The notes under the pieces: model-generated
Database searches by the model: none
Told to the model about the DNA's origin: nothing
What the model saw: only the letters and a program-made list of their open reading frames with translations
In this document: positions 15,729 through 34,126 of the stretch, piece by piece
Layout of the letters: each line of letters opens with the position of its first letter
How positions within the stretch are numbered: position 1 is the stretch's first letter
Assembly: GCA_037042915.1 (NCBI GenBank)
Contig: CM073194.1
Coordinates: 4,836,001-4,900,000 of the forward strand
Direction of reading: 5' to 3'
DNA: 64,000 nucleotides
Origin: Auricularia sp. M13
Taxonomy: Eukaryota; Basidiomycota; Agaricomycetes; Auriculariales; Auriculariaceae
Program-made: the position numbers and the translations under genes

Positions 15729-17204
15729 ATGTCCTCACCGTCGCTGCCTGCTGCTGTAGACGTTGTCATCGTGGGCGCGGGCCCGTCCGGGATGGCATGC
15801 GCGCTGTCGCTCGCCGCGCGCAAAGTGCCGTTTGTTATCGTTGATGCGCTCGCCGAAGGGCGCAACGGCTCCCGTGCGGTCCTCGTGCAGGCCAACGCGC
15901 TGGAGGTGAGTTTCCCATGCCTCCAATACTTCCTGCGACACATGCCGAAGTGAATCAAGAACTGAAACTGTGTGTTCGCAGCAACTGGAATCCGTGAACC
16001 CTCAACTGGCGGCCGAAATCGTAGCTGGCGGCGTGAAGTCCGAGAAGATAGCGTCGGTCGACCTGCAGGAGCGGCCGTTGTTCAGCCTCACCATGTCCGT
16101 GAACGCCAAGCGCGGTACGAAGTACCCGTACTCTCTGCTCATTGGGCAGCACGACGTCGAGCGCATCATGCGTTCGTATCTCCATCGCAGCGGGACGGAT
16201 ATCCACTGGAACACACGCGTGGTCGCCTTGCAGGAGGCCGGGAACCGCTACGAGCTGCGTCTGGAGTCCGGCGCGAGCATTACTGCGCGATACGTCGTCG
16301 CCGGAGACGGCTCGAAGTCGATGGTGCGATGCGGTTGGCAATGGCAGTTTCTGTTCCAGTTGCCAATCTGATTTCCTTTCTCTGGCTGGCCGGTGCTGAC
16401 CAATTTGCATTGTTGCAGATTCGATCTTTCGCGGGGATCCGGTTCCTAGACCCGAGCACCGGGCTCGACGCGGTGCCGTCGCCGCGCGACCCGTCGTTCA
16501 TCGTCGCGGACGTGATCTTTGAAGCGCCACTGCCGAAGAACGTGCCGCGCGACCACCTGCAGATGATGATGGGCCCCGAGGGCGTGCTCCTCACCGCGCC
16601 GATCATCAACCACGCTGCGCCGGTCGGCGACCCGCATGCGATGAACCTCTTCCGCCTCTACATCGGCATGCCCACCACGCCGCCTTCGGCGCCTGACGCC
16701 GCGTTCATCCAAGACATTCTCGACCGCCGCGGCCCGGGCTCTCATCTCCCCCAGTTCGACGTCCCGCGCGTACACAGCGTCCTCACGAGCTCGCGCTACC
16801 GCACGCGTCCTGCCCTCGCGGAGAGATACGTCCACCGCTCGGCAGGCGGAGCGTATATCCTCCTTGTTGGCGACGCGGCTCACAAGCACGGCCCTGCGGG
16901 TGGGCAGGGCATGAATATGGGCATCTGCGATGGGTGCGAGCTGGCGGAGGCCATTGACGCGCACCGCACGGGCAGCGCTGGCGAGAAAACCGACGACATT
17001 GCAATATTCGACGCCTACTCCGCCCGTCGGAAGAACATCGCGTCGAAGGTCATCGCCATGGTCGAGAACATGACCGAAGTCGAGCGCGGCGGGAACGGCT
17101 GGGGCACGTACCTCCGTATCCTCGTCATCGGCACGGTCACCAAGATCCCGTTCATCCACAACACAATGGCGTGGCAGGTTAGCGGTCTTTGTTACCGGAA
17201 GTGA
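15729..17204 (+). CDS. FAD-dependent aromatic-ring monooxygenase (FAD_binding_3 type)
   Basis: Exons 15729-15905, 15982-16323 and 16419-17204 give 434 residues. The N-terminal VDVVIVGAGPSGMACALSLA is the GxGxxG FAD site. A SRAVLVQANALE segment and the DG motif (YVVAGDGSKSM) follow. The second FAD motif appears as YILLVGDAAHKHGPAGGQGM followed by GICDGCELAEAI. This is the order of class A flavoprotein hydroxylases (phenol or salicylate hydroxylase type), which use NAD(P)H and O2 to hydroxylate aromatic substrates. The protein is shorter than the roughly 600-residue phenol hydroxylases because the C-terminal thioredoxin-like domain is absent. The last residues (WQVSGLCYRK) look like a natural end. 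The substrate is unknown. No neighbouring gene suggests a cluster. Confidence 0.9.
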
Positions 17205-19166: not shown

Positions 19167-19604
19167 TCAGCGCTCGTATCCAGGAGGAGAATTCGATGGG
19201 CCTTCCCCGCTATTGGTATAGGAATCTTTCCGAGCTATGCGGCCCAGGCTAGCTAGTATTGCGTCGACAGTGAAGCCCGCCTGCTTCATGACTCTGCGCA
19301 ACGCGGCAAGCTTCGCAGGGTCGTCCAGGGACGATGAACTAGACCGTCGCGCAACCACCTGTTCAGTCTTGTTGGATGCGACGAGTAGACGTTTCGGATC
19401 TCTCTCATTTACGATGGCCGTCTCAGCGCTCGGTGTCACGTCGTAAGGATGCAAGGAATCCCCGATTGACTCTACGTCCGAGTCGGCGCTGCGCTTGCGA
19501 CGAAGTGCCCTTCTCCGTCTCACATAGCACAGGATGGCTACTAGTGTGATGAGTGGATAGGATAGGATAGGATAGTATTGTAAGACGGGGAGGTCCCTTC
19601 AGGA
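19167..19604 (-). pseudogene. Tail of a single-pass membrane protein, 5' truncated
   Basis: The frame opens at about 19604 with a hydrophobic segment (LSYPLITLVAILCYV) followed at once by the stop-transfer cluster RRRRALRRKR and a Ser/Asp-rich cytoplasmic tail of about 105 residues ending SNSPPGYER. The tail includes KQAGFTVDAILASLGRIA, a motif that recurs near 43990 and, more loosely, in the tail of the gene at 35323. No ectodomain is found upstream: a stop appears at once and the LINE begins 250 bp away. It is probably the remnant of a gene cut off by transposon insertion. A missed upstream exon is possible. Confidence 0.5.
19550..19577. repeat. GGATA microsatellite
   Basis: Four to five copies of the pentamer GGATA lie inside the membrane-protein remnant. 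Confidence 0.6.
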
Positions 19605-19897: not shown

Positions 19898-22386
19898 TCA
19901 GTCGTAGATTGGCAACGCATCAAAGCATCGCAGGACATCTCGAACATAGCGTGCAAAAGCTGGCAATGTCGAATCAGTAGCTGCAAAATACTGAAGTGCC
20001 ATCTTCAGCTCTCCTGCTGCGATCAGACGGAGGCCATGTAGGCCGCCAAGGGAGTGGGCCGTCCAGAGGAAGTCCTTCCGCAGAGCCGACAGTTCAGCTG
20101 ATGCGTCACACACAAACAATGCATGAATAGGATCCTCGACCGCCTGCGCGCAGAAGCGGCACCGGCGCAGATCATGGTCTGCACCCGCATAGCGCATGCG
20201 TTCGACAGCCAGGTTATGTTCGGATAACAGCAGCTTAGTCAGCGCCTCCCTATGATCGGCAATCTTGAGCTTGAGATACGAGCGGAACGCCATGACTGGG
20301 GCTGAGCCCCATGGATCGTCATCTGTTCGCTTTGGATTTGGCCGCCCAACCAAGAGATCCAGCTTTGGGTTCTCCGTGATAGCGTCCTTGACGTGCTCTG
20401 TAGCTGCAGCGGACAGCTGTGCTCGGGCACTCTCGACGTCCTCGACGTCTGCACGGTATGAGATCAGCACCGGCACCGGAAGGAGGGCCAGAGCTTTCAT
20501 CAGATCATCATACCATGACCTGTGCCCTGCCGTCGCAAGGGACACAGAGTCGAGCAGAGCACGATGGACCAGGCTGTCTGATGGCTGCTGCAGCGCGTAC
20601 CCTAGCTGCCGCAGGCACAAGTCGGCTCTCCGATAGCGGATGGGCATTATGCCCGTCTCAGAGAACCGCGGTGCCACACAGCTGTTTGGCCGCAGTCGCA
20701 GAGTCTTGCGCAGATACATCAGCTGCATCCTCTGCAGTTTCTCCGTCGCCGAGTTTGTAGCGTCTGGACTGATGTCGGCACCATGCGTCAGGTGCGGGTC
20801 GACGAGCGCCATATAAAGGCGCTGTGCCACCGTCGGCGGCACTCGCAGACACCTCTGGTCCAAGACTCCAAAGATCAGGGAGGATATGACGTGCGCGCGA
20901 TCCGCCTTGAGCGAGGTGTGCACGCAGAAGTGGTTGCGAGCGGACGATTTCAGCGTCACACCCACATACATCTTCTCCTCCTGATACGGAACCGGACGTC
21001 CGTTCAGCGTGAAAGCTGGCCACGATGCGGGTGATCGGCCAAGCGGCATCCACCACGACTTCTTTCCGTTGATCTGCAGTAGGTTAAGGCAGCACCAACG
21101 GAAGAGAGCGTCTAGTTTTGCCTGCAGCGCCTGGGGCGATGTGGAAAACAGAACAATATCATCCGCCTGCTCCAGGTGTGCAACACGTGCACCCGCTAGT
21201 ACGACGTCCGCGTCGTTGTCCGGTAACACCAGGTCGCGGAAGAAGAGCAGCCACATAATTGGTGAGAGCGGGTCGCCGATGAGCACACCCATGTCTGAGC
21301 TGAATAGGTCGGAGTGCTCGCCATCCAGGCGGACACAGTACGACATGTGCTGATAGATGAATCGGTACATGTCGAACAGCGGCCCGCGCATACCAAGGGC
21401 ATGCAGCTTTAGCCATAGGATGGAGTGGTCCACGGAAGGGAACGCGTTTGCAATATCCACCGAGGCCACGTACAGAGCACGCTTGTTTGCACAGGCACGC
21501 TCCGCAGCGCAGCGCAATATGAAGACATTGTTGTTAGTGCGCTTGCCAGCCCAGAACCCATTCTGCGTTTTGGGGACGAGGTCGTTGTCTTCCACCCACT
21601 CGCGAACGCGGGCATCGATCAGCATCATGAAGAACTTCAGTAGACAGCTCTCCAGGCCAATAGTGCGGTACGCATTCGGGTCCGTCGGGTGCCCGCCCCG
21701 CTTCAGGATGCCAGCGAGAATAGTCAGCAGCCAGTACTCTGGGACTACGCAGCCCAGTGTGCAGCTGTTGAACAGTTCCGCGAGCGCATCATTCGGAATA
21801 TCCATAAGAACCCGAAAGGCTGTCTTGTCAAAGCCCGTGGATTTCCCCGGGGGACGCGACCTGTCAGCAGTGCGGTTAGAGCAGACGCAGTAGCCCTGCA
21901 CTGTAGATGGCACCTTATCCTTGATTTAAGGCGAGCAACATCCTCCGGGCTGAACTTCCTGCGGAAGTACCCCTTCTCAGAGTCGTCGTAGGTGACATCG
22001 CCAAGTGCGGCGGCTTGCAGTCTGACACGCTCGATGTGCGCTGCATCGAATTCTGGCGGGGGTACGAGCGGGGCGTTCATGCGCTGCATGTACACCAGCT
22101 GCAGCGCTCGCATCGCTACCGCCGCCTCTCGTGAGCGGGGATGGGAGACGTGGAGCACGAGCTTCCAGAACTGGACGTCATTCCAGACGGCCTCCAGAGC
22201 ACCCAGGTTCTCTGCCGCCTTGCAACGCCGTGCTTCGCGTCCTCGATGGAACTCCGACGTCGGTTCCCGCGTCGGCATATCAAGTGACGGAGTCGCTGGG
22301 CGCGCGGTCTGCTCCTCATTTGCCGGCACGGGGGTCCGGGGCAGGGATGTGTAGACCTTTGCTTCGGCGCCCGGACCCACACACAC
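19898..22386 (-). pseudogene. LINE ORF2, 3' half: linker, reverse transcriptase, zinc finger
   Basis: This encodes the reverse transcriptase that copies LINE RNA at a nicked target. The polymerase motifs are in order: QNGFWAGKRTNNNVFIL (fingers), SVDIANAFPSVDH (motif A with catalytic Asp), GVLIGDPLSPIMWLLF (motif B) and LEQADDIVLFS (motif C). Motif C has Gln where most LINEs have Tyr or Phe before ADD. A thumb region follows, then near the C-terminus a zinc-finger pattern C-x2-C-x8-H-x4-C (RCRFCAQ...IHALFVC), usual in LINE ORF2 proteins. The first 450 bp are in another frame; a one-base loss near 21930 (around ARLKSR) separates them from the RT frame. The stop is at 19898. Confidence 0.9.
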
Positions 22387-23192
22387 TGTCACGGCAGAGC
22401 GCTCGTCACTCGCCGAGACCGACGCCCAAGAGAGGAGAGAGGGACGAGGAAGAACGGACAAGCGATACAATTGACCAGACCAAACCTGGGGTACACGCAT
22501 CTACACCCTACAACCTATATACCCTTCCCCCAGGGTCCGATGATCCGGTCCAGGGTGATCCCGGAGCTCCAATCGAACCTGGTCCGAGACAGGACAAAGG
22601 TGCCGAGGTATGCTATCCACATACACACCCACCGAGGGCACGAACCGGGGAGGAGGGCACCTCCCGAGTGCACGGGGAGAGCGCCGAGCGGCTGAGGCCA
22701 CGGGCCGAGGGTCCGAGGATGTAGCCGAGCTTGTACCAGGCGATGACAACCGGCCTACTATCCCTCCGAGGGGTGTCGCACCAGCGAGGAGTCCAACAGA
22801 GGCGTTCCAGACCCTCCGAGGTCGTTCAGGGTGGCCCACCGAGTTCGCCCGAGGTCAGAAGGGGATCCTAGAGTCCATCCCGAGCATCACAACACCCATA
22901 CCCGACGCATACAGCGAGGGGAGAGCTGCCGAACCCTGGTCCAAGGATAAGAAGCCTCCACCGAGCCGAATTGGGGTATGCGCCGAGGTCGTCTCACCCC
23001 CTAGACCGGTAGAGAGCGGCGCATCGATCATATCCCGAGTTGAGCAGCCCGAGGCGTATAACCCTGGCCGAGTCTCCGTTCGAGGGTAAACAGTGCGCCG
23101 ACTGTATGCAGCAGCGACCGAGCGCTCGGCGAAGCGGCGTAAAACCCGCGGACGAGCGGACAGAGCTTGCGACGGCCGTGATGACCGCAACA
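22387..23192. repeat. Left LTR (806 bp)
   Basis: TG...CA-bounded direct repeat. It contains CTATATACCC (around 22517), a candidate TATA element for rightward transcription. Confidence 0.87.
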
Positions 23193-23361
23193 TAACCCCC
23201 CCTTCAAGCCGCGAGCCGAGGGAGTGTCCGAGAGAGGGAGGCGAAAGGCGGGGAGGACGAAACAACGGACCGAGGGCGCCGCGGACTGAATAGCAATTCA
23301 GTTCACGGTTTGACATAAAGCGTCGGCCTGTCAGTTTGCTTCTTGTCCTCATACCACCACC

Positions 23362-24487
23362 ATGCCCGCTACAGACCGCGTTGACAACGTCCGCGCCGAC
23401 CAGCCCAGCAGCGGGGCGCCCGCCTGGGTGCCCGTGTTGGACGACTTTGTTCTTTCTCGCGCCCGGCCCGAGGACCTGGAGGCCCGCGTCGTCGTCCTCG
23501 GCGACGCCGTCAACCGTATTGTCGCCGCGCTCGTTGACCCTGGGATCCCGCCCGCGCACCGTGACTTGGCCCGCCACCGCCAGCTTGAGTTCGAGACGGA
23601 GCGCCGCTTGTTGCTCGCGCTGTTGCCTTCCGCCCATGTCCTGGCAGCCAGTCTGGCGGCGTGCTCGTCGCCGTCGGACGCGCTGCTCCTGCCGTCCATG
23701 ACCGTGCCGCCGTCGCCGTCCGACCCTGTCCGTCCGCTGGCTTTGCGCTTGCCCCCGTTGCCGTCGGACGCTGCCTCCCGCCCGCGCTGCTCGGCGTTGA
23801 GGATTCCGCCCGGGCACCCGTTATACGCTGAGTGCAAGGAGCCCGCGCCGTCGTCGTCCACTGCTGCTCCGTTGCCGCGCCGTCCCGTACCGGCGTCGTC
23901 GTCGTCCCGCGCGCCGGGGCCGTCTTTCTCTGCGCGCTCGGCGCCGACCCCTCGTCCGCCGCGCTCGTCGTCTGCTGCCCGCGCGCCGCCCGCGTCCGCG
24001 CCACCACCGCCGACACTTCTCCACCACCCGCGACGGCCGAGGACACCCCCGGCCGGTGTGTACGAGCGTCGCGCTGCGCGAGCGGCGTCAGGCGTGGGAT
24101 AATGCGTTCGCCGACGGTCTGATCGACCGCCACGGGTCCCGACGCGTCGGTAAGTGCTTTGTTCTGTTGCTGCTGGTAGCGGGGTATTAACATTCGGCAG
24201 CCGTGTAGCCGATCGTGGACCGCGACGATGAGTGCCTTCCGGCGCAGGGGCTGGCGGCGTGCCTCGAGTGCTCGCGCCGGAAGGTGAAGTGCTCGTGGAA
24301 GGATCTGCGCGCGCCGCTCGGGTTCGGGACCAAGACCGGGAAGGGTTCCAAGGCGCCGGCGTCGGACACGCGTGCGCCGCCATCTCGCTCCCGCGCCGCG
24401 TCCGTCGTACCCCAGGCGCCCGCGTCGTCGTCGTCTCGTGCCGCGGTCTCGGACCGCGAAGGAGAGTCTGCCTGCGCTGCCTATTGA
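23362..24487 (+). pseudogene. Internal gene of the LTR element: Ala/Pro/Ser-rich protein with Cys cluster
   Basis: From ATG at 23362 (MPATDRVDNVRADQ) a helical N-terminal region of about 100 residues (DLEARVVVLGDAVNRIVAAL; DLARHRQLEFETERRLLLAL) leads into a long Ser/Pro/Ala-rich stretch. The frame then ends at 24102, while another frame continues with protein-like sequence (ALRERRQAWDNAFADGLIDR). After a probable intron donor near 24150 a third segment (DRDDECLPAQGLAACLECSR, then RKVKCSWKDLR) shows C-x2-C-x6-C, like the first half of a fungal Zn2Cys6 cluster or a degenerate Gag zinc knuckle. The frame breaks suggest decay or unresolved introns. It may be Gag-like or DNA-binding; I cannot decide. 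Confidence 0.5.
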
Positions 24488-25797
24488 GGCACCGAGTGCG
24501 GGCGTCACGGCGGCCGCGCCCCGCTGCATCCCAACTTCATGGCGCAGTTCGCGGCGGCGTGGTCATTGGTTGCCGGGGAGCCGCTCCGCCAGCGTCGTCG
24601 CATGTGTCCGTGCCTTTGCGCTCGGCCATGCGCCGCGGCACTCGTTTTGCGGCGGGTACGGCGGCGCGGTCGTCCCGCTCGTCAGTTACACCGGGGCGAG
24701 CTCCTCGCGCGCGTCGGCACCACCTGAGTCGGGTCCGGAGGAGGAGGAGGAGGACGAGGACGAGGTAGAGGAGGTGGAGGAAGCGATGGACATGGACTGA
24801 GGATTCGGTTCGGCATCCTGTACTTAGTCTTTCTTGTCGCAATGGGCGCATGTACAGAATATAAATAGCTTTCTTGAATCTGGGACCGAAGTGGGAGTCC
24901 GAACCAGCGCAAAGACCAATTGGACTTCTTTCTGCGGGTCCGGGACTTTGGCTCCAGTCGTCGGCGTATCCATCCTGGTGTGGCACCTTCCGACCCAGGC
25001 ATCCTGCGGCCGACTCCAAGGTCCGGGAAAGGTTGGATTCCAGTCCTGTGCTGTGTCCTGTTGGTCCGACTGCGCCTGCGCACCGACCCATAAGTGATAA
25101 GGGAAATAAGGAACGTGTGGGATCCGCCGTCGGCGGCTGGGGTTCGCGCAGCGAGTGAAGTTACTGGTTGCTGGAGCTTCGGCGTGAGCTCGGGGCATCG
25201 TTAAACGTCGTACATGTCGTCCCGCCAGCGGCCGGTGGTTCGTGACGTCCTCGGGGCGAGGGTGTTCATATCTCGGGCGTTGCGGCGCGTGCATCCAGTC
25301 CATCCGGATCACGGCCGAGGCCCCATCTGCCGATGGCGTGCGAGAGGGGGGGGTGTAACAGCTGTGGCTTGAGCGCGCAAGTCCAGACAACCGGGGTGGG
25401 GTTTTGGGCGTGGGCGAGTGTCTCGGTTTACTCGCCGAGGTGGAGGGTGCGAAGGAGGTGCTGCACCAGGGGTCGCCGAGGGCGGGATCGGGGTATCCCG
25501 CGCGACCGTGTGGAGAGGCTGTGCCAAGGGCTTGGTCATGCGCTGCGGCCGATGGGATGGAGATAGGGCCTTGGCAGCGGACGCCTCGCTTCTCGGTGTG
25601 GATGGCGACTCCGAGGGAGAAGGATGCGGGTGCCAATGGACCTCGGCCGGTGCACAGCGGCTAGCTGACGGCGAGGCCGGCCTGATGAGGTCGTCGGCGT
25701 GACACACGGGCGATAGTAGTCGGGAGGACGTCGCGGCCGTGTGGGGAAGAAGAAGAGGGATGAGCGTCGGTCGAAAGGGAGTGAAGGTTTGGTCTTA
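24488..25797. other. Internal region of the LTR element, right part
   Basis: This GC-rich stretch between the Cys-cluster exon and the right LTR shows no domain. An acidic Glu run is encoded near 24735-24790 on the plus strand (SGPEEEEEDEDEVEEVEEAM). Confidence 0.4.
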
Positions 25798-26654
25798 TGT
25801 CACGGCAGAGCGCTCGTCACTCGCCGAGACCGACGCCCAAGAGAGGAGAGAGGGACGAGGAAGAACGGACAAGCGATACAATTGACCAGACCAAACCTGG
25901 GGTACACGCATCTACACCCTACAACCTATATACCCTTCCCCCAGGGTCCGATGATCCGGTCCAGGGTGATCCCGGAGCTAAAGGGTCCATTCACCATCAT
26001 CTCCCATGATGCCAACACCCTACCACACCTCCAATCGAACCTGGTCCGAGACAGGACAAAGGTGCCGAGGTATGCTATCCACATACACACCCACCGAGGG
26101 CACGAACCGGGGAGGAGGGCACCTCCCGAGTGCACGGGGAGAGCGCCGAGCGGCTGAGGCCACGGGCCGAGGGTCCGAGGATGTAGCCGAGCTTGTACCA
26201 GGCGATGACAACCGGCCTACTATCCCTCCGAGGGGTGTCGCACCAGCGAGGAGTCCAACAGAGGCGTTCCAGACCCTCCGAGGTCGTTCAGGGTGGCCCA
26301 CCGAGTTCGCCCGAGGTCAGAAGGGGATCCTAGAGTCCATCCCGAGCATCACAACACCCATACCCGACGCATACAGCGAGGGGAGAGCTGCCGAACCCTG
26401 GTCCGAGGATAAGAAGCCTCCACCGAGCCGAATTGGGGTATGCGCCGAGGTCGTCTCACCCCCTAGACCGGTAGAGAGCGGCGCATCGATCATATCCCGA
26501 GTTGAGCAGCCCGAGGCGTATAACCCTGGCCGAGTCTCCGTTCGAGGGTAAACAGTGCGCCGACTGTATGCAGCAGCGACCGAGCGCTCGGCGAAGCGGC
26601 GTAAAACCCGCGGACGAGCGGACAGAGCTTGCGACGGCCGTGATGACCGCAACA
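25798..26654. repeat. Right LTR (857 bp, with 51-bp insertion)
   Basis: It matches the left LTR throughout except for a 51-bp insertion at about 25979-26029 and an A/G difference (22943 versus 26405). Confidence 0.87.
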
Positions 26655-28130
26655 CACACAGACTCCGCAGTTATCGACGGCGGTGTTGCGGGCAAGTCTG
26701 CCAAGAGTTCCACAGGAGGAAGTAGAGCACCAGCTTTAGCCAGACGGTCCGCCTCTTCATTCAGACAGTTGCCTGAATGTCCTTTCACCCATTCAAAGCA
26801 GGTTGCACCTGAGCGAGCAGCGAGGATGTTCACCGCCGGAACAATGAGATCTGCGTTCGCGCACGTCCACCCCGTCATGGCGTAGGTCGGGGCCCAGTGG
26901 CAGAAGGTGTGGATGACGTGCTCAGAGTCTGTAAAGATGCGCAAATCACGATTGCTTTGAGCCTCGCGCGCGGCATAGAGCACAGCATAGAGCTCGCCGC
27001 GGTTACTGGTTTGTGCTGCCGGTACGCGCAGGGCAAGATTTCTGGAGCTCCCTAGACCCCAGCAAGCACCGGCGCCTGCGCGTGCGGACGCCATATTGGC
27101 ATGCAGACAAGAGCCGTCTGTGTAGACCGACACGAACTCGTTGGTAATCAAATTCTGCCGTTCGCCGTACAGCGCAATGACCGCCGTTTTGGGCGACATC
27201 GCCGCACTGAGCGTGCTCTCCAGCAAGCTCTCTATCCCTGCCGACATGGCGGTCGACCGGATTTGCAGAGAGCGGCGCAGCGGAGGTAGAACCGCGTTGT
27301 TCTCGCGCGAGTCAGCGGGCTGTGTGGCCTCAAGCACGAGCTCGCAGCACAGCGGCGCGTGATCCGACCAATAGTTGGGGACGTCGCCCACGCTCAGGTG
27401 AACGCCGAGGTCGTAGGCTCTCTTATTACACACCACATAGTCGATGACCGTGGACCCACGCTCCTGACCCGAAGTGAACTTCGCAGCGTCGGGCGATGTG
27501 CCGTTCATGATCCCCAGGCTGTGCTCAGCCAGGATATTGGTCAAGGAGCGGCCGCGAGTATCCACAAAAATGTCCGCAGAGCGGCGCGCGGGCGCCCAGG
27601 CAGCGGGCTGGACATTGCCCGACCGATAGTTGTGGTCACCGAAGACATACAGTGGCCGGTCGCTTCTAGACGCGCATGCAGCAACAGCAGCGTTATAGCG
27701 GTCGACGACATTTGTGTCACCATCGTCCAGAAACGGCGAGCCCACCGGTGCAAGATAAGCGTTTATGGCACAGGCACCGAGGACGTCGAGTACGAGGATG
27801 TCTGGCGACGAGAGATCCATTCTGAAGACATGCGGGATAGCCGTGCGGACAAGAGCAAGTACTCCTCCCCACTGGCGCGCGAGGTCGCGCCTGAAAGGGC
27901 GCGGACATGAGTAAATGGTATACCCTCGCGGCAGGGGAATCAGATCGTCCTGGCCAGGCAATAGATGCGTCTCCTGAAGGAAAATAACATCATATTCCAG
28001 TAGAATTGCCACGAAATCGTTCTCTTCGAGCTTGGACTCGAGGTCGCCAGCAATATTCCACGAAAGGAGATGAACTAGGACTACATGAACACAGATGCAT
28101 AAAGCAACTGATTCTACATACGCGTTCTCT
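26655..28130 (-). pseudogene. LINE ORF2, 5' half: AP endonuclease and RNase H
   Basis: The endonuclease nicks target DNA and the RNase H degrades template RNA. Endonuclease motifs in order: LLSWNIAGD, FLQETHLL (catalytic Glu), PLYVFGDHNY, STVIDYVV and YWSDHAPLCC. RNase H follows directly with all four acidic positions: VYTDGSCLH, SNRGELYAVLYAA, RIFTDSEHV and WVKGHSGNCLNEEADRLAKA. The frame overlaps the end of ORF1, whose last codons are ATG-TAG. It then runs into the LTR element within SITAESVCV and, after virtual removal of the insert, continues into the RT half. RNase H normally lies after the RT in LINEs, so the order here is unusual. Confidence 0.88.
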
Positions 28131-28599
28131 TGTGGCTGCTGCCAGTCTGAGCATCGACGGCGTCTCGGAAGACAGCATCCTGCGAGGGCAAGACGTTGTC
28201 ATACTCCTGCACGGTCAGGGCCTTGTAGTCCTTGTGCTTCGACGGCCAGTTCTGGAGAACCAAGCGACGCGACTCCTCGTGTTCGAAGAAGACGATAACG
28301 AAGCCCTGGTTCTTCTTGTTCAGCTCGACGGCATACGGCCGCTCGCGGTCCACAGCGTTTGCCAACGTGTCCAGGATGCGGACTACGTCGATGTACAGCT
28401 TCTTGCCGTGCGACTTCTGGAACGCAGTTGACGAACCGACGCAGAGAGCATAGAGCTCGGGGTCGATACGCGCACGCTTCGCCGGCCTGTTGCTCGTACC
28501 CGCCTGCGGGGCTGGCGAGCGGATATCGCCAGAGAGACTATTCCGGCGTAAAACTCGGCTGCCTGAGTCGCTGAGCTGGTGGGCCGTAGAGCCAGGGCG
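28114..28599 (-). CDS. LINE ORF1 (C-terminal part)
   Basis: An open frame of about 160 residues, opening after a TAG at 28600-28602, reads a Ser/Pro-rich lead (SGDIRSPAPQAGTS), a basic PAKRARIDPELYALCV segment, and a folded-looking region (KKLYIDVVRILDTLANAVDR; NKKNQGFVIVFFEHEESRRL; NWPSKHKDYKALTVQEYDN). Position immediately 5' of the endonuclease ORF and the ATG-TAG overlap mark it as ORF1, the RNA-binding or chaperone protein. Sequence upstream to about 29000 may encode its N-terminus in another frame (28629-29003), separated by stops. Confidence 0.6.
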   Translation of the reverse strand, partial: RPGSTAHQLSDSGSRVLRRNSLSGDIRSPAPQAGTSNRPAKRARIDPELYALCVGSSTAFQKSHGKKLYIDVVRILDTLANAVDRERPYAVELNKKNQGFVIVFFEHEESRRLVLQNWPSKHKDYKALTVQEYDNVLPSQDAVFRDAVDAQTGSSHKRTRM

Positions 28600-32248: not shown

Positions 32249-34126
32249 ATGGACAGTAGTGCGTCGCTATCAGTTCTCGTAGACCCTCATCTGTGATGCC
32301 GACGCCGGTTCCTTGAGCAGCCACTGCGACAGCGTCGAGCGCCGCCCCCGCGCAGAAGGGCGTGTTCAACTTCACGTTTGCGCCGAACATCACGCCCGAC
32401 ACATTCGTTTCCACGGTCCCTACTGCATCTGCCGCCACACCCGCAGGCTCCGACGAGGCGTCCGCCGCCTCTCCGCAGTCCTCCACGCCTGGCAGCAGCT
32501 CTGCGCAGTTGTTCCCGCCGTCCTCCCCCCGCGGGCGTACTCACCCAAAACGCCCCACACACTCCAAGCGGCGCGGCTCCGGCCACATCCCCCGCCCGCC
32601 CAATGCGTTCATTCTATTCCGGGCAGAATTCGTCAAGAACAGGCACATTCCCGACACCATTGAGACGCAGCATAGCGGACTATCCAAGATTGTCGGTGCG
32701 TCCCTGTTCCCTGACAGCTGTCACCGGTGCCTGATGCTCATGCGTGCGTACGCAGGCGCATGCTGGCGGAAGCTGCCGTTCGAGGAGCGCGCGATCTGGG
32801 AGGAGAAAGCCAAGTCTGCCTCTGAAGAGCACAAGGAGAAGCACCCGGGGTACAAGTACCGGCCCGCGCCTGCGAGGACGGCGTCCAAGAAGAACTGCTC
32901 GCCATCGAAGCGCGAGACTGCTGCTCAGAAGCCGCTGCAAATCACCGCTCCCGCCCAGCAGCTCGCGCAGGTCGAGCGCAAGGTCGAGGACGTCGCGCAG
33001 CTCCTGCTCAATGGCAAGCGCGGCTCCGAGCTCAACGCCGCGTTCAACGACCTACAGCGCGAGCGAAATCTTCGCCAGCCACAGCAGCCCTCCGCCTTCG
33101 CGCCATTCGCGGCCGCCGGGCCCTTCGGCTACCTTCCGGCCCACCTTCAGCATCGCCGGTCGTCGTCTGCTCCCCCGACTGAGAATGCGCAGTTCATGGC
33201 CCCGATGCACCGCAACTCCATCGTCTACGCGCACAACGACTCTCACCTTGACGCGGCGCCCTTGGCATCGCTGGCCGTGCGCAGTCTTGCGCTCGAGCCC
33301 GCGATGGGCAGCTTCGGCCTGTCTCCGAACATGATGGACAGTTCATCTCCGCCCCCGCTCATGTCGGGCCCTGTGAGTGGGGATGCTGAAGCGATTGCCG
33401 CCGAGCTCTTCGGCGCTTTCACGCAGAACCCATTCGCCGCGGCCGACTCGCTTGGTCAGGCCCAGCAGCCGCCATCGGACGCCAACAACTTTGTACGTCG
33501 CCATCTCTTATCGCCCGATGTTTACCGCGCTACAGCATGCTCACCCGCCTTTCCAGAACTTCCCGATGGAACAGCAGCTGTCACAGATGTCCGAGCTGTT
33601 CGACCCGTCCTTCATGGCCGGCAACTTCTCGCCCATGGACGCCCAATTCCCCGCCCCGATGGACGCCGGGGCTTCGTTCACGTACGATGTGTCCACGCCG
33701 TCCTTCCCCACCGACACCATCCCGTCGTCGAGCGACCTTGCCTCCTGGGCCAGCATCCCCGTCCACCCCAGCCCCCCGGCAGAGATGCCTGAGCTGCTCG
33801 ACCCTTCTTCGGTACAGTACCCGGCAGACTACGGAGCCTGGGCACCTCAATCACACGCTAGCCCTGCCGCGGCGCAATACAACCAGTACAACTCCCAGCC
33901 CGCGTCCACATACTACAGCGGCCCCCCTTCAGCTGCCTATGCCCCGCGCGTTGCAACCGACGGCATGTCGTTCACGACGTACGATTCGTCGGCCCCTGTA
34001 ACGCCCATCATCGAGCCCGAGGAGAAGGCCTTCTATCAGTACGTGAAGGATAACCTCAACCTCGTCAGCCCGACCCCGACCTCTGCGTACGGCATGCCCA
34101 ATTTCTTGACCAACACGGCTTACTAG
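32249..34126 (+). CDS. HMG-box transcription factor (MATA_HMG/Ste11-like)
   Basis: Exons 32249-32258, 32321-32695, 32756-33492 and 33536-34126 give 570 residues. The single HMG box (about residues 85-160) reads HIPRPPNAFILFRAEFVKNR, TIETQHSGLSKIVGACWRKL and PFEERAIWEEKAKSASEEHK, ending GYKYRP; the IPRPPNAFILFR start is typical of fungal sequence-specific HMG proteins of mating and development. A Lys/Arg segment follows, then a long Gln/Pro/Ser/Asn-rich region probably used for activation, ending with SYGMPNF-like low complexity. Exon 1 is only 10 nt; it was chosen because it gives an ATG in phase and a GTGCGT donor. The second intron (60 nt, inside the HMG box) keeps frame if unspliced but would insert a Cys-rich loop, so splicing is assumed. 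Related proteins control mating and fruiting. Confidence 0.9.

Follow-up and report, generated by a model that had tools for sequence, protein, structure and literature searches.

A long interspersed nuclear element (LINE) of the basidiomycete Auricularia sp. M13 carries its RNase H between the endonuclease and the reverse transcriptase (RT), and it probably represents a distinct lineage. The element lies in a stretch of 64,000 nucleotides, here called the window (assembly GCA_037042915.1, contig CM073194.1, positions 4,836,001 to 4,900,000 of the forward strand), whose minus strand encodes, in this order, an apurinic/apyrimidinic (AP)-type endonuclease (EN), a type 1 RNase H and an RT of the type found in elements without long terminal repeats (non-LTR). 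Most described LINEs having RNase H carry it behind the RT. We put at roughly three chances in four the reading that the element belongs to a distinct AP endonuclease (APE)-type lineage in which the second open reading frame (ORF2) reads EN-RNase H-linker-RT-Cys/His, ORF1 lies upstream in the relatives, and the RNase H was likely captured from a eukaryotic RNase H1. Uninterrupted relatives with the same order make it a real branch of LINEs, one that may be undescribed.

Relatives in the Same Genome Have a Common Domain Order

Relatives were searched in the element's own assembly (52.1 Mb, 14 contigs). A query with the EN/RNase H protein returned 83 matches; because these are the best 83 scored of 163 candidates, our locus counts are lower bounds. 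Exclusion of 68 matches that hit only the LTR-derived tail of the query (query positions 425 and above) left at least 15 loci, the window included. Twelve of these have the order EN-RNase H-RT, with some parts truncated or frameshifted (for example, at C8:1864450 the RT match is limited to query residues 26–140). Three loci are without one or more parts: C2:3668794 has EN and RNase H and no adjoining RT match, at C5:702961 only the EN is matched and it contains three stops, and at C2:4224422 the match covers RNase H and RT and lacks EN. RNase H follows the RT at none of the at least 15 loci that match the EN/RNase H protein. A single open frame of 1286–1472 amino acids spans all three domains in seven loci (L031, L032, L033, L035, L036, L037, and L038), a Pfam scan recovered EN-RNase H-RT in 6/6 uninterrupted ORF2s (all seven but L035), and a conserved stretch precedes the RNase H in the relatives. 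An RT match (C2:3706217-3708004) lies on the same strand about 36 kb beyond the EN and RNase H remnant at C2:3668794-3670086, and the two are possibly one element split by insertions.

Eight ORFs from the same genome were scanned with Pfam for comparison. L045–L047 read EN-RT-RNase H, and L048 reads RT-RNase H, its upstream part lying outside the fetched stretch. L049 (1694 aa fetched) reads EN-RT with no RNase H and resembles L1 ORF2p (2.4e-45). Two ORFs, L051 and L058, have RT only, of which L058 is a member of the lineage studied here, and L054 is a lone RNase H protein. In this host RNase H-like protein (L054:321-1499:-), the catalytic His region reads IPRALNQRAD and the His seems lost.

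Domains and Ends Typical of APE-Type LINEs

The lineage combines several features of APE-type LINEs: an AP-type EN and a non-LTR RT in one ORF, tandem-repeat tails, and a 5′-truncated copy. A scan for set patterns found 3′ tails in 7/14 oriented loci plus the window, namely (CTAC)n in L034, L035, L036, and L038, (TAC)n in L031, L033, and L044, and (CTATC)4 in the window copy. The other 7/14 oriented loci have no tail with the patterns scanned, and some of them are degraded or cut. L035 is 5′-truncated relative to L036, to which it is 97.7% identical, and its start falls inside L036; L036, L040, and L034 have a longer 5′ part in common. From these domains and ends we infer movement by target-primed reverse transcription. 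The EN would nick the target DNA, the RT would copy the RNA from the nick, beginning at the repeat tail, and the adjoining RNase H would strip RNA from the hybrid, enabling second-strand synthesis.

The RTs Form a Separate Group

We built an RT tree from 24 sequences, comprising 12 lineage members, four LINEs with RNase H after the RT, five L1-like elements, and three R2 elements; L034 (frameshift) and L039 (no RT motif) were omitted, and the tree holds no named Tad, Deceiver, or Inkcap reference. Lineage RTs split from the 12 others at 99.8/100, and the best-scoring placement joins them to the LINEs with post-RT RNase H. The catalytic motif is HADD in 10/12 and QADD in 2/12 lineage RTs (L031–L033, L035–L038, L041, L044, L057, L058, and the window), and nine other fungal RTs have YVDD, FVDD, YIDD, YADD, or FADD. 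The lineage has H or Q at the position where an aromatic residue is usual. An AlphaFold model of L031 from the RNase H to the end (predicted local distance difference test score, pLDDT, 72.4; predicted template modeling score, pTM, 0.58) matched R2 best in Foldseek (2.8e-15), followed by L1 ORF2p (4.2e-15). Solved-structure matches of the window RT ORF likewise place R2 proteins first, with L1 ORF2p weaker.

Among known systems, Tad1 and I-group LINEs are similar in having AP endonuclease, RT, and RNase H within ORF2, and differ in carrying the RNase H after the RT, where the lineage has it before. The comparison elements L045–L048, which we infer to belong to Tad1, have the motifs YVDD, FVDD, YIDD, and YVDD in contrast to HADD/QADD, and the lineage RNase H is more RNase H1-like than theirs, with its handle region kept (see below). 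According to the available text of PMC4640811 (2015), the LINEs with RNase H include the I group, plant L1, Proto1, and Dualen, and a position upstream of the RT is unique to oomycete Utopia. Utopia agrees with the lineage in where the domain lies and, by that text's description, differs in its restriction-like endonuclease, its U2 gene targeting, and its RNase H, which is archaeal-type and has R as the fourth catalytic residue; the lineage has an AP endonuclease and H. A general Pfam scan, in which no dedicated model was searched, listed no restriction-like domain at E 0.1 in 6/6 lineage ORF2s, all six having an AP-type EN. Plant and oomycete L1 elements have likewise captured an extra RNase H according to the accessible part of PMC5348765; theirs is archaeal-type and at the C-terminal end of ORF2, and that of the lineage is RNase H1-type and before the RT.

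The lineage could also belong to Deceiver or Inkcap, fungal clades that may already have been described with an EN-RNase H-RT order. Accessible portions of two papers report Deceiver and Inkcap as new non-LTR clades beside Tad from a survey of fungal genomes (PMC4427930) and name an Inkcap LINE in a mushroom (PMC9674265); those portions give no structure for either clade. The statement in PMC4640811 that restricts upstream RNase H to Utopia speaks against such a description, and we regard membership in either clade as possible and somewhat doubtful. The part of PMC5718144 that is available contains nothing on an EN-RNase H-RT order, and our literature search returned no fungal report of it, a weak negative since subscription papers were mostly outside its coverage. 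Of the original prediction that the element defines a distinct fungal LINE lineage, separation of the RT clade from three other groups is upheld, and a difference from Deceiver and Inkcap is not established.

An RNase H Domain Probably Taken from a Eukaryotic RNase H1

All 11 aligned lineage RNase H domains keep D-E-D-H-D when read by eye, in line with type 1 RNase H of the fungal/metazoan kind, and the fourth catalytic position is H in 11/11, not R as in the archaeal type. We located the host RNase H1 via its hybrid-binding domain and read its exons by eye. Lineage domains are 34–38% identical to it and 33–41% identical to human RNase H1, versus mean identities of 22–26% to the four post-RT LINE domains (25–31% in another, earlier alignment); the post-RT domains are 17–22% identical to the host RNase H1. 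A handle region with two tryptophans, resembling that of RNase H1, is present in the lineage and gapped in the four post-RT domains. In the maximum-likelihood (ML) tree, lineage RNase H and host RNase H1 stand apart from all other sequences (support 91.3/88), and the two together with human RNase H1 are separated from the post-RT domains, E. coli, and L054 (86.3/82). Foldseek of the modeled RNase H part found RNase H1 structures best (6vrd, template modeling (TM) score 0.84 by target length, 35% identity; human RNase H1 2qk9, TM 0.82 by target length). Ratios of nonsynonymous to synonymous change show purifying selection on the domain: for three diverged pairs pN/pS is 0.21, 0.23, and 0.37, and for L035/L036, a close pair with few changes, dN/dS is 0.31.

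These comparisons suggest that the lineage likely acquired its RNase H from a eukaryotic RNase H1, inserted between the EN and RT domains in an event separate from the origin of the Tad/I-type post-RT RNase H. A different account would need no new capture: the domain would be an ordinary Tad/I-group LINE RNase H moved forward in ORF2, or an ancient, conservative form. The ML topology and the higher identity to host RNase H1 speak against it, as does a phmmer comparison in which the L038 ORF2 matched a solved RNase H1 at 6.1e-23 and the whole post-RT ORF2 of L045, the one such ORF2 searched, matched no solved RNase H at E ≤ 0.01. It draws support from the best-scoring RT placement, from the handle region, which may be ancestral because E. 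coli RNase HI has it too, and from the approximately unbiased (AU) test, in which a single origin of both LINE RNase H sets was not rejected (P = 0.26, and 0.42 with a smaller set). On this evidence we consider the account without a new capture unlikely.

Besides this AU result, several points weigh against a distinct lineage with a captured RNase H1. The nearest RT neighbor is undecided because alternative placements have AU P = 0.08 and 0.064. All lineage copies come from one assembly, and the comparison LINEs were hand-picked for RNase H after the RT and are not a survey of the genome's RNase H matches. No convincing LINE target-site duplication (TSD) was seen in three loci, where the longest shared flank words are 5–6 nt. 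Scans of viral and prokaryotic contig collections gave no relative, a negative that says little and that a fungal element would lead one to expect.

The order EN-RNase H-RT, with an RNase H1-like domain under selection, shows that the LINE polyprotein tolerates RNase H on the opposite side of its RT. What non-LTR elements gain from RNase H is described as poorly understood in the available text of PMC5348765, and a canonical RNase H in a new place offers a direct route to testing it.

ORF1/ORF2 Junctions Hint at Recoding

Junctions were examined in 12 of 15 loci (window, L031–L044; L042, L043, and L044 were left out). Six junctions (window, L032, L033, L037, L039, and L041) place ORF2 at −1 to ORF1 and have overlapping open frames, five (L034, L035, L036, L038, and L040) continue in the same frame past a single UGA, and one (L031) has ORF2 at +1 with no overlap. 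An in-frame AUG between the ORF1 stop and the EN motif is absent in 8/12, just before the motif in L034, and earlier in 3/12. The ORF1 stop is preceded by G TTA AAC in L032 and L037 and by T TTT in L033, L039, and L041; the overlap junctions of these five read G UUA AAC UGA or U UUU stop, and same-frame junctions read UGA-CGG. The five UGA stops have TGACGGTGGCAGACGGG in common, which occurs exactly 5 times in the assembly; a reversed control pattern had one match with one mismatch allowed.

These junction sequences hint at recoding. A bolder version of the lineage reading is that a distinct fungal LINE clade captured a host-type RNase H1 between its endonuclease and RT and produces ORF2 mainly as a recoded fusion with ORF1; some sublineages would use −1 frameshifting at slippery stops, and another would read through UGA-CGG. 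We consider it tentative and rather improbable, and the following results count against recoding. None of the three copies folded has an unusual predicted RNA structure downstream of the UGA (z = 0.46, 1.57, and −0.36), and synonymous conservation there showed no excess over other stretches, so UGA read-through is a lead only. No slippery site was seen at the window junction, and the candidate ORF1 of the window has no significant match to other ORF1s and no Pfam match. Independent cases are few, because copies within each junction type are related: the five same-frame copies to one another, L032 to L037, and the ORF1s of L033, L039, and L041 among themselves. We know of no LINE lineage that switches its recoding mode yet keeps the fused product; if true, such a switch would be new.

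The Window Copy and Its Nested LTR Element

The window copy of the LINE is dead, being interrupted by an LTR element and frameshifted (Table 1). Its EN and RNase H share one ORF (26456-28012:-), and Pfam places the RT in a separate one (19898-21913:-). When the flanks of the insertion were joined by script into an empty site, residues 5–631 of L031 matched one frame through the junction and residues 638–1280 matched another; the match switches frame at 631/638, and therefore one frameshift, between 21913 and 21841, persists before the RT. The original prediction had proposed that excising the LTR element restores one frame through the junction, which is correct as far as it goes; the later frameshift was absent from its account. 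Pfam and reading by eye also confirm its placement of an RNase H with all catalytic positions between the AP endonuclease and the RT.

That prediction took the window copy for a single element rather than two adjacent ones, and named intact relatives with RNase H after the RT, or none before it, as the sign of a chimera; uninterrupted relatives in the assembly instead have EN-RNase H-RT, and the order in the 12 loci and the six ORF2s agrees with a single element. A chimera or chance neighborhood of two elements, to which the interrupted and frameshifted state of the window copy might point, is accordingly rejected as extremely improbable given the seven single open frames, the order common to the loci, and the conserved stretch before the RNase H.

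Table 1. Parts of the LINE copy and of the element nested in it, in window coordinates
Feature	Position	Strand	Basis
RT and C-terminal Cys-His motif ORF	19898..21913	-	Pfam RVT_1 7.4e-20, residues 72-310; catalytic motif QADD
Frameshift-bearing stretch between linker and RT	21841..21913	-	Two tblastn pieces of L031 in differing frames
Linker between RNase H and RT, RT side of LTR insertion	21914..22381	-	L031 match; ORF 21745-22500:-
Start of linker after RNase H, EN side of insertion	26655..26725	-	L031 match to joined flanks
RNase H domain, D-E-D-H-D complete	26726..27133	-	Pfam RNase_H 2.2e-23; phmmer to solved RNase H1 1.4e-20; alignments
AP-type EN	27359..28078	-	Pfam Exo_endo_phos 1.2e-9; N-terminal reach from L031 match; motifs SWNIAG, QETHL, GDHN, IDY, SDH (roles presumed)
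3′ tail of LINE, (CTATC)4	19556..19575	-	Tail pattern scan; element extends beyond 19898
Possible 3′ end of ORF1	28114..28365	-	Assigned by position only; EN frame -1 to it, open 82 nt upstream of ORF1 stop
Nested LTR element, not part of LINE	22387..26654	.	LTRs 22387-23192 and 25798-26654; TSD CACAC

The LTRs of the nested element measure 806 and 857 bp and differ by one 51-bp indel and by 1 mismatch in the 806 bp compared, and 5/5 internal ORFs scanned have no Pfam match (E 0.01). Because of the near-identical LTRs and the internal ORFs without a Pfam match, the element is probably young and nonautonomous. Outside the LINE, the window ORFs that flank it (15972-17204:+ and 32362-33792:+) have Pfam matches to FAD_binding_3 and HMG_box and are presumably host genes. 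Elsewhere in the assembly, matches to the nested element's LTR stand in rows on C3, five at 2500400-2514460 with a spacing of 3.46–3.47 kb and four at 4075045-4084575 spaced about 4.1, 2.6, and 2.6 kb, an arrangement that suggests head-to-tail arrays of LTR elements.

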